A stretch of DNA of 32,796 bases, taken from positions 1 to 32,796 of the forward strand of contig CACXEY010000162.1 of NCBI GenBank assembly GCA_902766695.1. Direction: 5' to 3'. The first letter of the stretch is position 1; every line of letters begins with the position of its first letter. Source of the DNA: an uncultured bacterium (GTDB lineage: Bacteria > Verrucomicrobiota > Kiritimatiellia > CAIQIC01 > Lenti-01). The position numbers and the translations under genes were made by a program. The notes under the pieces were generated by a model. It saw only the letters and a program-made list of their open reading frames with translations. It made no database searches and was not told the DNA's origin. Positions 13,373 through 31,945 of the stretch are shown here, piece by piece.

Positions 13373-13529
13373 ATTCTTGCACATGGGAAATCGCAAGGTT
13401 TTCACCTGACAACTCCATTCATCGACGGCCGCGCGCCGTACTCCCCCCGCCGCCCTTTTCCTTCCGCTCCGCATTCGCAATCCACAAGCCGTCTTCCCCT
13501 TCCATTCAAATTCCCGGCGGGCCAAAATA

Positions 13530-13631
13530 TTTTCCAATCATTGGAAAACCGCCGCAAATTTTTTCCAATCATTGGAAAATTCCGCCGATTTTTTCCAACC
13601 ATTGGAAAAAACTTTTCCAATCATTGGAAAA
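13530..13631. repeat. Four-copy array of a 19-bp palindrome (probable operator cluster)
   Basis: TTTTCCAATCATTGGAAAA is present at 13530-13548, 13561-13579 and 13613-13631, and with one change (AACC for AATC) at 13591-13609. Start-to-start distances are 31, 30 and 22 bases, close to 3, 3 and 2 turns of the DNA helix. Each copy is a near-perfect dyad with a single central base, too tight for an RNA hairpin loop but typical of a dimeric DNA-binding protein site. It lies between the two paralogous kinase genes, about 500 bp upstream of copy 1 and 39 bp beyond the stop of copy 2. No other copy was noticed in the window. Confidence 0.75.
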
Positions 13632-13669
13632 CTCCGCGAGCCGCCGCCGGCTTCGGGATGGGGGCAGCC

Positions 13670-23539: not shown

Positions 23540-23569
23540 GTTTCTTCTCCTTTCAAACAAAATCCATCA

Positions 23570-23645
23570 GACAATTTCTGACAATTTCTGACAATTCTTT
23601 CCAAGAAAATTGTCGGAATTGTTGGATGCAATTGTCGGAATTGTC
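23570..23645. repeat. Inverted cluster of GACAATT repeats between lpxI and the oxidoreductase
   Basis: GACAATT occurs at 23570, 23580 and 23590 (exact 10-base period). Its complement AATTGTC occurs at 23608, 23630 and 23639, with a variant AATTGTT at 23617. The arms face each other around the short centre CTTTCCAAGAA, so the transcript could fold. It ends two bases before the lpxI stop codon. Confidence 0.75.
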
Positions 23646-23647
23646 GC

Positions 23648-26520: not shown

Positions 26521-28263
26521 ATGAATCCAAACGACATCGCCCTTTCCACCGTCCGGCACAGCGCGGCGCACATCATGGCGGCCGCGGTGCGGCATCTCTG
26601 GCCGGACACCCGCTTCGACATCGGCCCCGCCACCGACGAGGGATTCTACTACGATTTCGACCTCTCCCACCGCCTTACCGAAGAGGATTTCCCCGCCATC
26701 GAGGCCGAAATGGCCAAGATCATCGCGGAGAACGTACCCTTCGTGCGCGAGGAGAAGACCCGCGAGGAGGTCATGGAACTGATGCGCTCCCGCGGCCAGT
26801 CCTACAAGCTCGAACGCCTCGCCGACATCCCCGAGGGCGAGACGATCACGCTCTACCACAGCGGCGACTTCACCGACCTCTGCGTCGTCCCGCACGTCGC
26901 GGCCGCCGCCGAGATCAAGGCGTTCAAGATCCTCTCCGTCGCCGGCTCCTACTTCCGCGGCGACGAGAAGAACAAGATGCTCCAGCGCCTCTACGGCACC
27001 GCCTTCCTCTCCCAGGAGGATCTCGACGCGTACCTGAAGATGCGCGAGGAGGCGAAGGCCCGCGACCACCGCGTGCTGGGCCGCGAGCTCGACCTGTTCC
27101 ACCTCGACCCCGAGGACCCGGGGCAGATTTTCTGGCATCCGAAGGGGTGGACCATCTACATCGAGCTCCAGGACTACATGCGCCGGAAGCTGGTCGCCGA
27201 CGGCTACCAGGAGGTCAACACCCCGGCCATCATGCCCCGCAGCCTCTGGGAGCGCAGCGGCCACTGGGAGCACTACCAGGCCAACATGTTCATCACGGAG
27301 AGCGAAAAGCGCATCTTCGCCGTCAAGCCCATGAACTGCCCCGGCGCGCTCGAAATCTTCAAGAGCCGCACCCGCAGCTACAAGGACCTGCCGCTGCGGC
27401 TGGCGGAATTCGGCCACTGCGTCCGCAACGAGCCCAGCGGGACCCTCCACGGCATCATGCGCGTCCGCGGCTTCGTCCAGGACGACGCCCACATCCTCTG
27501 CACGGAGGAACAGATCGAGGCCGAGGTCGCCAAGTTCTGCCGCCTCCTGGTGGGCGTGTACAAGGATTTCGGGTTCGACAAGAACCTGCTGGTGAAGCTC
27601 AGCACCATGCCCGCCGACCACGTCGGCGACGAAGCCACCTGGCGCCACGCCGAAGAGGCCCTCGCCGCCGCCTGCAAGGCCACCGGCATGGACTACGTCA
27701 TCCAGGAGGGCGAAGGGGCCTTCTACGGGCCCAAGCTCGAGTTCACCCTCATCGACGCCCTGAACCGCCCCTGGCAGTGCGGGACCATCCAGCTCGACTA
27801 CCAGCTGCCCAGCGAAGGCCGCCTCAACGCCGTCTACACGGGGCCCGACGGGCAGAAGCACCACCCCGTCATGCTGCACCGCGCCGTGCTGGGCTCCCTG
27901 GAGCGCTTCATCGGCATCCTCATCGAGCAGTACGCCGGGGCCTTCCCGCTCTGGCTCGCGCCCGTGCAGGTCGAGCTCATCCCCGTCAACGACAAGGCCC
28001 TGCCGGCCGTCGAGAAGGTCGCCGACGTCCTGCGCGCCCGCGGCTTCCGCGTCCACGTCGACTCCCGCAGCGACAAGATGGGCGCCAAGATCCGCGACGC
28101 CCGCCTCCAGAAGATCCCCTACATGCTCGTCATGGGCGCGCGCGAAGCCGAATCCGGCACCGTCTCCGTCCGCTCCCGCGCCGAAGGCGACATCGGCGCC
28201 ATGCCCCTCAACGCCTTCATCGCCAAACTCGACGCCGAGTGCGCCGTCAAACACGGCGCCTGA
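26521..28263 (+). CDS. thrS: Threonine-tRNA ligase without TGS domain
   Basis: 580 residues against about 640 in E. coli. The sequence starts directly in the editing domain, so the N-terminal TGS domain (about 60 residues) is missing; the upstream promoter at 26453-26481 leaves no room for it. The editing site is present: HSAAH at residues 13-17 and DLCVVPH near 119-125 (family DLCxGPH, the R/G positions being V-V here). The class II catalytic core carries motif 2 (RNEPSGTLHGIMRVRGFVQDDAHI) and the zinc ligands Cys in MNCPG, His in DDAHI and His in MLHRAVLGS. The anticodon-binding domain occupies the last 100 residues. It charges tRNA-Thr and probably clears mischarged Ser. Confidence 0.97.
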   Translation: MNPNDIALSTVRHSAAHIMAAAVRHLWPDTRFDIGPATDEGFYYDFDLSHRLTEEDFPAIEAEMAKIIAENVPFVREEKTREEVMELMRSRGQSYKLERLADIPEGETITLYHSGDFTDLCVVPHVAAAAEIKAFKILSVAGSYFRGDEKNKMLQRLYGTAFLSQEDLDAYLKMREEAKARDHRVLGRELDLFHLDPEDPGQIFWHPKGWTIYIELQDYMRRKLVADGYQEVNTPAIMPRSLWERSGHWEHYQANMFITESEKRIFAVKPMNCPGALEIFKSRTRSYKDLPLRLAEFGHCVRNEPSGTLHGIMRVRGFVQDDAHILCTEEQIEAEVAKFCRLLVGVYKDFGFDKNLLVKLSTMPADHVGDEATWRHAEEALAAACKATGMDYVIQEGEGAFYGPKLEFTLIDALNRPWQCGTIQLDYQLPSEGRLNAVYTGPDGQKHHPVMLHRAVLGSLERFIGILIEQYAGAFPLWLAPVQVELIPVNDKALPAVEKVADVLRARGFRVHVDSRSDKMGAKIRDARLQKIPYMLVMGAREAESGTVSVRSRAEGDIGAMPLNAFIAKLDAECAVKHGA

Positions 28264-28272
28264 CGCCGCGCG

Positions 28273-28376
28273 AGTGACAAGTGAATAGTGACAAGTGACA
28301 AACTGCGGATTCTTCAAATTTCAAATCCCGAACCAATCCACCGCATCTTTTCACTTGTCACTTGTCACTTTTCACT
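28273..28376. repeat. Inverted heptad-repeat hairpin between thrS and infC
   Basis: The left arm 28273-28300 is four heptads: AGTGACA, AGTGAAT, AGTGACA, AGTGACA. The right arm 28349-28376, read on the minus strand, is AGTGAAA, AGTGACA, AGTGACA, AGTGAAA. Both arms are exactly 28 bases and pair with four mismatches across a 48-base loop. It may end thrS transcription or act on infC; there is no long T run after it apart from short TTTT stretches. Confidence 0.8.
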
Positions 28377-28453
28377 TTTCCCTCACCTCCGATTTCGCTA
28401 AAAACCACTGACAAACAACAACCCCCCAAAAACGGAACAACCGAAAAAGGAAT

Positions 28454-29047
28454 ATGCCCCTCCCTCCTCCCAACCAAAAGCCGGACCCGCGCAACGCCAA
28501 CACCCCGCGCATGAACCAGCGCATCCGCGTCCCCGAGGTACGCCTCGTCGGGCCGACGGGCGAAGCGCTGGGGATCGTCCCCACGCCCGTCGCGCAGGCC
28601 AAGGCGCGCGACGCCGGCCTCGACCTCGTCGAGATCTCCCCGACCGCGCGGCCGCCCGTGTGCAAGATCATGGACTACGGCAAATTCCGCTACGAACAGG
28701 GCAAGAAGGCCAAGCAGAACCGCCGCAACGCGGCGGCGACGCGGGTGAAGGAAGTGCAATTCCATCCCAGCGTGGGCGACGCCGACTACGCCGTCAAGCT
28801 GCGCAAGCTCAAGGACTTCCTCTCCGAAGGCTCGCGCGTGAAGGTGGCCCTGTTCTTCCGCGGCCGCGAAAACGCCCACAAGGAACTGGGCTTCGACCTG
28901 ATGAACCGCGTCCTGGCGGACGCCAGCGACATCGGCGTCGTCGAGCAGGCCCCCAAACTCCTCGGCCGCAACATCCAGATGACCCTGATGCCCAAGCCCA
29001 AGGCCCGCCAGGGCGGCGCCCCCAAACCCGCCGCGCCCGCGCCCTGA
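28454..29047 (+). CDS. infC: Translation initiation factor IF-3
   Basis: 197 residues. The N-terminal domain begins at RMNQRIRVPEVRLVGPTGE, followed by the linker helix FRYEQGKKAKQNRRNAAATRVKEVQFHPSVGDADYAVKL (shown in part) and the C-terminal domain with GSRVKVALFFRGRENAHKELG, the usual IF-3 landmarks. A tail of about 15 residues rich in Pro, Ala and Lys is extra. IF-3 binds the 30S subunit and checks start-codon pairing. The ATG at 28454 has AAAAAGG five bases or fewer upstream, which is tight; an in-frame ATG at 28511 would give the shorter classical N-terminus. The usual partners rpmI and rplT do not follow; the next gene is a tRNA. Confidence 0.96.
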   Translation: MPLPPPNQKPDPRNANTPRMNQRIRVPEVRLVGPTGEALGIVPTPVAQAKARDAGLDLVEISPTARPPVCKIMDYGKFRYEQGKKAKQNRRNAAATRVKEVQFHPSVGDADYAVKLRKLKDFLSEGSRVKVALFFRGRENAHKELGFDLMNRVLADASDIGVVEQAPKLLGRNIQMTLMPKPKARQGGAPKPAAPAP

Positions 29048-31866: not shown

Positions 31867-31945
31867 GACTTGGCGACTTTCGACTTGGGGAGAGCCTGTG
31901 GAGCCCTTCGGGCCAACCAAGTCGCAAGTCGCAAGTCGCCAAGTC
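31867..31945. repeat. Inverted heptad-repeat hairpin upstream of the AsmA-like gene
   Basis: The right arm 31919-31945 is AAGTCGC, AAGTCGC, AAGTCGCC, AAGTC. The left arm 31867-31887 is its complement in 20 of 21 positions (GACTTGGCGACTT, one mismatch, CGACTTG). The 31-base loop holds a small GCCC-TTC-GGGC hairpin. Same design as the element at 28273-28376, with a different heptad. Confidence 0.8.

Follow-up and report, generated by a model that had tools for sequence, protein, structure and literature searches.

Between thrS and infC, the genome of an uncultured member of the Kiritimatiellia carries two inverted arrays of seven-base repeats, which raises the question of whether the hairpin that they can form is itself the object to be explained or one arrangement of something smaller. 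In the window (the entire 32,796-nt stretch of DNA analysed here), thrS, encoding threonyl-tRNA synthetase (26521–28263, forward strand; Pfam tRNA-synt_2b, HGTP_anticodon and tRNA_SAD), is followed by infC, encoding translation initiation factor IF-3 (28454–29047, forward strand; Pfam IF3_N and IF3_C), so that the arrays lie in the gap between the stop of thrS (28263) and the start of infC (28454). Direct reading confirms the four heptads, 28 bases in all, that the original prediction assigned to each arm (28273–28300 and 28349–28376). The left arm, AGTGACA AGTGAAT AGTGACA AGTGACA, runs into a decayed tail, AACTGCGG, and makes up with it a forward-strand unit at 28273–28308 (E 6.7e-8 with our sequence model R1). 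Beyond a 30-nt spacer, the hairpin loop (28309–28338), which has diverged in a sister species, a second unit faces the first on the reverse strand (28339–28376; E 2.2e-11), with its tail CACCGCATCT at 28339–28348 followed by the four heptads of the right arm, AGTGAAA AGTGACA AGTGACA AGTGAAA in reverse complement. A decayed fifth heptad, AGGGAAA, can be read outside this second unit (28377–28383, reverse strand). Together, the two tail-to-tail units take up more than half of the thrS–infC gap.

The hairpin is real, and it is neither a chance fold nor a standard terminator. Its 36-nt arms, 32 nt apart, are 83% complementary, and positions 28265–28390 fold as RNA with -40.5 kcal/mol on the forward strand (z -7.0) and -51.8 kcal/mol on the reverse strand (z -6.7), better than 200 of 200 shuffles. 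A scan of 28100–28600, allowing loops of 3–8 only, returned no U-tract terminator, and neither arm is followed by a run of five T, in line with the predicted unlikeness to a normal terminator; in an Rfam search of the window, a tRNA alone exceeded the gathering score, with no match to the hairpin.

A polar 38-nt unit of four heptads and a tail

Read side by side, the arrays resolve into a polar 38-nt unit in which four heptads are followed by the tail AG(A/TT)TGCGGTG, and we conclude with high confidence that this unit, not the hairpin, is the basic object, the thrS–infC element being one tail-to-tail pair of it. The unit is not itself palindromic on direct reading, and the heptads of a lone array (91 nt, L175) pair weakly. 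Genome-wide searches with R1, in which 150 candidates were scored per genome, put the number of units at no fewer than 116 for this genome (G000) and no fewer than 113 for the sister species (G001), both of them lower bounds, and the unit is present throughout both of these searched species of the genus; the placement statistics given below refer to 940 kb of the former and 722 kb of the latter. The main heptad types are AGTGACA, AGTGAAA, AGTGACG and AGAGACG, with the AG and G positions invariant within the heptads and the tail, and none of these types contains a G-run, so that a G-quadruplex is impossible for these units. Length is nearly fixed: exactly four heptads are present in 103 of the 131 scorable units, as counted past the model on both sides, R1 itself having been built on four-heptad units.

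The predicted period of 7 is prominent in both species. The 940-kb sample of G000 holds 25 strict period-7 arrays compared with 0–5 for each of the other periods between 4 and 15, a ratio inflated by the choice of 20 of its stretches for contigs with AGTGACA arrays, and the 722 kb of G001, mostly stretches picked for carrying units, holds 56 such arrays as against 2, 19, 10 and 9 for periods 6, 8, 9 and 10. Genome-wide in G000, the pattern AGTGACAAGTGACA (at most one mismatch) has 95 matches and its reversed control 4. In G019, a member of the same order, a reversed control pattern has 25 matches, probably arrays of another AGTGADM-type heptad.

The heptads of one array tend to agree with each other and with their tail. 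Most arrays (75 of 103) carry one and the same base, A or G, at position 7 of all their heptads; heptad likeness is 0.90 inside one array versus 0.82 between arrays; and the tail type goes with the heptad type, AT with A and TT with G (p 1e-6). Uniformity within arrays, like the longer arrays of distant members of the phylum (G258), would suit an ordinary simple-sequence repeat, made and erased by heptamer slippage alone. A nearly constant copy number, a fixed unique tail behind the array that is linked to it in type, and the dispersal of a family that is not locally born all speak against slippage, which we hold to be an improbable explanation.

The original prediction had also joined the thrS–infC pair in one class with the element at 31867–31945. 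The similarity of layout, observed in both, stands, but the sequence is not shared: the second element (GACTTGGCGACTTTCGACTTG ... CAAGTCGCAAGTCGCAAGTCGCCAAGTC) is a member of a separate heptad family, AAGTCGC, which has no GCGGTG tail and, in the examples read, forms true hairpins, often by gene ends and of up to -69.6 kcal/mol. The pattern of this family (CAAGTCGCAAGTCGCAAGTCGCCAAGTC plus its complement) has 21 matches in G000, 24 in G001 and none in the other 54 genomes searched, and is thus genus-specific among these relatives.

Other repeats are found in the same genomes. At 13525–13637, the near-palindrome TTTTCCAATNATTGGAAAA occurs in four copies at 22–31 nt spacing; with 191 exact copies in G000, 193 in G001, 76 in G019 and 27 in G022, and absent from most of the family, it is a separate abundant dispersed palindrome. 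At 23567–23646, a decamer array (TCTGACAATT) precedes two copies of AATTGTCGGAATTGT, a sequence with 12 matches in the sampled G000 and one in G001. Conversely, GGTGGGGCGAGCTCTCCGAGCGAGCC (L176, L039 and G001 generally), with 57 matches in the sampled G001 versus 4 in the larger G000 sample, is a lineage-specific expansion.

Placement relative to genes and to other units

A crude home-made gene caller, based on codon usage with thrS and infC as seeds, places 105 of 113 units between genes, against a non-coding share of about 26% in the sampled parts of the two genomes. The units are oriented towards genes by their heptad end, which has a gene within 50 nt in 54 of 100 cases as against 7 of 90 for the tail end (p 2e-12); the median distance to a gene 3' end or 5' end is 24 or 85 nt from the heptad end and 269 or 428 nt from the tail end. 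Such strict polarity to gene boundaries, a count mostly of four despite varying heptad sequence, and the invariant AG and G of heptads and tail might be expected of an array of binding sites for a repeat-recognising DNA or RNA protein that needs four sites to function. No candidate protein came to light, however, the sister species switch heptad sequence at the same site, and units are absent from most of the family; we regard a binding array as unlikely.

About 15 predicted genes end within a unit. Since every AGTGA heptad supplies a TGA, a period of 7 could close all three frames near gene ends, and 70 of the 103 four-heptad units do so on the heptad strand, almost none on the other. Nevertheless, AGAGACG heptads have no stop, a frame stays open in the remaining 33 units, the AAGTCGC family contains no stops and many units are placed 5' of genes on the antisense strand, which makes an all-frame translation stop a very improbable role.

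The majority of units stand alone. Among neighbours within 400 nt of each other, 15 pairs are in the +- arrangement, none in -+, 8 in ++ and 10 in --; in other words, facing units meet tail to tail and never head to head, and inverted doublets are over-represented. Spacers of paired units measure 27–283 nt, with the thrS–infC pair at the short end. Further pairs elsewhere in the genome, anticipated by the original prediction, therefore exist, but its view of the mirror pair as the basic design is not supported, since most copies stand alone and paired arms resemble each other no more than shuffled ones do. A GC-rich palindrome arm adjoins about half of the units (58 of 123), and larger unit clusters are mosaics of several palindromes. 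In both species, an AAA_14/DUF4143 ATPase gene sits amid clusters of units and GC palindromes (L176:1–5113, contig 90 of G001, and L038:10082–11980); in G001, a YhcG-type nuclease gene adjoins it, and the two are possibly cassette-like neighbours.

Is pairing, then, what selection maintains? The pair could be a functional RNA hairpin that terminates or attenuates the thrS–infC transcript or stabilises its 3' end, selection keeping the two arms complementary. The sister species, whose IF-3 protein is 100% identical and whose DNA is 96% identical through this region, has the same inverted pair in the same place, with both arms mostly G-type as opposed to A-type in G000; this joint switch, after which the sequence still folds with -54.3 kcal/mol (z -4.6), speaks for an RNA role, as does the avoidance of divergent gene pairs by units (6 of 85 versus 113 of 655, p 0.017). 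Over the small sample of 13 pairs, however, partner arms were 0.842 identical compared with 0.833 for shuffled partners (P 0.34) and gained nothing in duplex stability (P 0.29). Partner arms match no better than shuffled ones, and pairing is therefore not evidently the selected property; with neither identity nor duplex energy significant, we reject maintenance of the hairpin by arm covariation. Given, in addition, that most units are unpaired and that the U-tract of a terminator was not found, a selected RNA hairpin seems rather unlikely to us. The hairpin is probably not the main point of the element, and it may have a local role at thrS–infC.

Inverted doublets also recall REPINs, which are abundant, intergenic and hairpin-capable (Bertels and Rainey, 2011; PMC3116915), features that the 38-nt unit shares at more than 100 copies, and G000 and G001 both contain matches to the Y1 domain of RAYT, the transposase that moves REPINs. 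Unlike REPINs, the unit is not palindromic and is mostly single, its singles are not clearly more decayed than doublets (p 0.09), and no associated RAYT was found: in 12 loci with Y1-domain genes, including both of those of G000 and two of the four of G001, no unit lies around the gene. With no unit near the Y1 genes of these 12 loci, we reject a RAYT/REPIN origin, which is extremely improbable.

Site retention and heptad switching between sister species

The comparison of G000 with G001 bears on how units change. At orthologous unit sites, flanks are mostly 96%–99% identical, and at several of these sites, that between thrS and infC included, an array stays in place although its heptads have switched type together, so that the predicted change of heptad sequence within a constant design is seen between these species. 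At one site (L034/L175), AGTGACA x4 has AGTGACG x4 as its counterpart and both species have the same tail; at another (L049/L186), heptads and tail have switched together; and at three (L035, L117 and L045:17580) the heptads are identical. As the comparison involves two species without an outgroup, these differences are described here without a direction of change. Of about 12 sites compared, a single one is a candidate empty site (L184/L112): G001 has a unit there and G000 has none, with no clear sign of the target-site duplication that a transposon with terminal inverted repeats (MITE) would leave. Recent movement is therefore rare.

Independent point mutations that hit one position in all four heptads while the surroundings stay conserved are very unlikely, and copying, from another unit or from the facing arm, is the simplest inference. 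We give about an even chance to the explanation that the unit is a dispersed, non-autonomous, non-coding repeat whose copies stay uniform because units copy one another, its mechanism being deduced from sequence comparison, and we have moderate confidence in the copying mechanism. Units would spread and be overwritten by copies from other units, through ectopic gene conversion or template switching, both between dispersed copies and between facing arms; such copying could hold arrays at four uniform heptads while the heptad sequence changes, and the linkage of heptad and tail types is expected if whole units are copied. The transcribed hairpin is probably a by-product, with at most a modest effect as an attenuator or in 3'-end stabilisation, and any host function of the units is probably slight. 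Several observations weigh on the other side: no enzyme is tied to the units, the rarity of recent movement sits uneasily with spread, gene conversion is read from sequence switching and not seen directly, the G001 array AGTGAAA AGGGAAA AGAGAAA AGCGAAA (L045/L177) has no obvious donor, and the count of four could also be held by selection for factor binding.

Distribution and relation to known heptad arrays

No unit occurs in 13 of the family's 17 genomes. The named carriers are four rumen Kiritimatiellae MAGs. Two partial MAGs from other genera have 14–17 units each, but over 0.8–2.3 kb their unit contigs are partly 97%–99% (L147 and L149 of G002) or about 88% (L151 of G003) identical to G000/G001, which may reflect misbinning or a recent transfer; the tailed unit may thus be limited to a single genus. 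Across the phylum, AGTGAMD x4 arrays are patchy (12 of 289 genomes). In G143, which belongs to a different family within the class, the model has 87 matches, most of those listed ending at position 30–31. The AGTGAMR arrays of G143, G187 and G258, all from the same phylum, resemble the unit in their same or similar heptads and many copies and differ from it in having no GCGG tail; G258 and the contig L217 also have longer arrays, unlike the 38-nt unit. L217 (1–7349), phage-like by a terminase-like ORF read from its translation, carries five AGTGAA(A/G/T) arrays of 3–7 copies, several directly 3' of stop codons or before starts. A phage origin of the unit was rejected: of three IMG/VR matches, L217 has no tail after its arrays and the other two comprise two heptads only.

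The unit belongs with dispersed heptamer arrays, a known but unexplained kind of element. In Beggiatoaceae, TAACTGA direct repeats form more than 100 sets of 2–6 copies and one indirect repeat, for the most part immediately 5' of start codons (MacGregor, 2015; PMC4679880), and are likewise low-copy heptad arrays between genes; unlike for the 38-nt unit, the abstract of that study mentions neither a tail nor a rule of tail-to-tail pairing. Of the described cases, the nearest is that of the Xanthomonas GGGAATC heptamers which, with the GGGGA(C/T)T heptamers, make up the heptameric repeats of Xanthomonas and Nostoc, dispersed arrays with a preference for four units; the GGGAATC arrays are 89%–93% intergenic, include 70–75 convergent pairs, follow a strand rule near genes and mostly keep their sites between species, with sequence variation, and their count of four has been tied to G-quadruplex formation (Rehm et al., 2015; PMC4692102). 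Dispersed and mostly intergenic heptads, the four-copy preference, strand polarity to the nearest gene, convergent pairs and site retention are common to both systems. The 38-nt unit differs in the lack of G-tracts, the conserved GCGGTG tail, far less length variation and heptad-type switching. A tail shared with Xanthomonas was rejected, one Xanthomonas plasmid with GGGAATC x4 having no GCGGTG.

What is new here is the same layout without G-tracts, combined with a fixed tail and type switching. Because count, placement, strand rule and convergent pairs recur without G-tracts, the G-quadruplex explanation becomes testable, and a G-tract-free family points to a common cause behind such arrays, a long-standing question. 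Taken further, gene-facing four-heptad arrays might be one general kind of element across unrelated bacteria whose heptads are likewise unrelated, written or rewritten in blocks by a dedicated copying mechanism that counts to four, with the G-quadruplex account for Xanthomonas wrong or incomplete; we put this forward as a speculative and unlikely proposition. Two close species in which sites are kept and heptads switched offer a natural experiment on the concerted evolution of short repeats.
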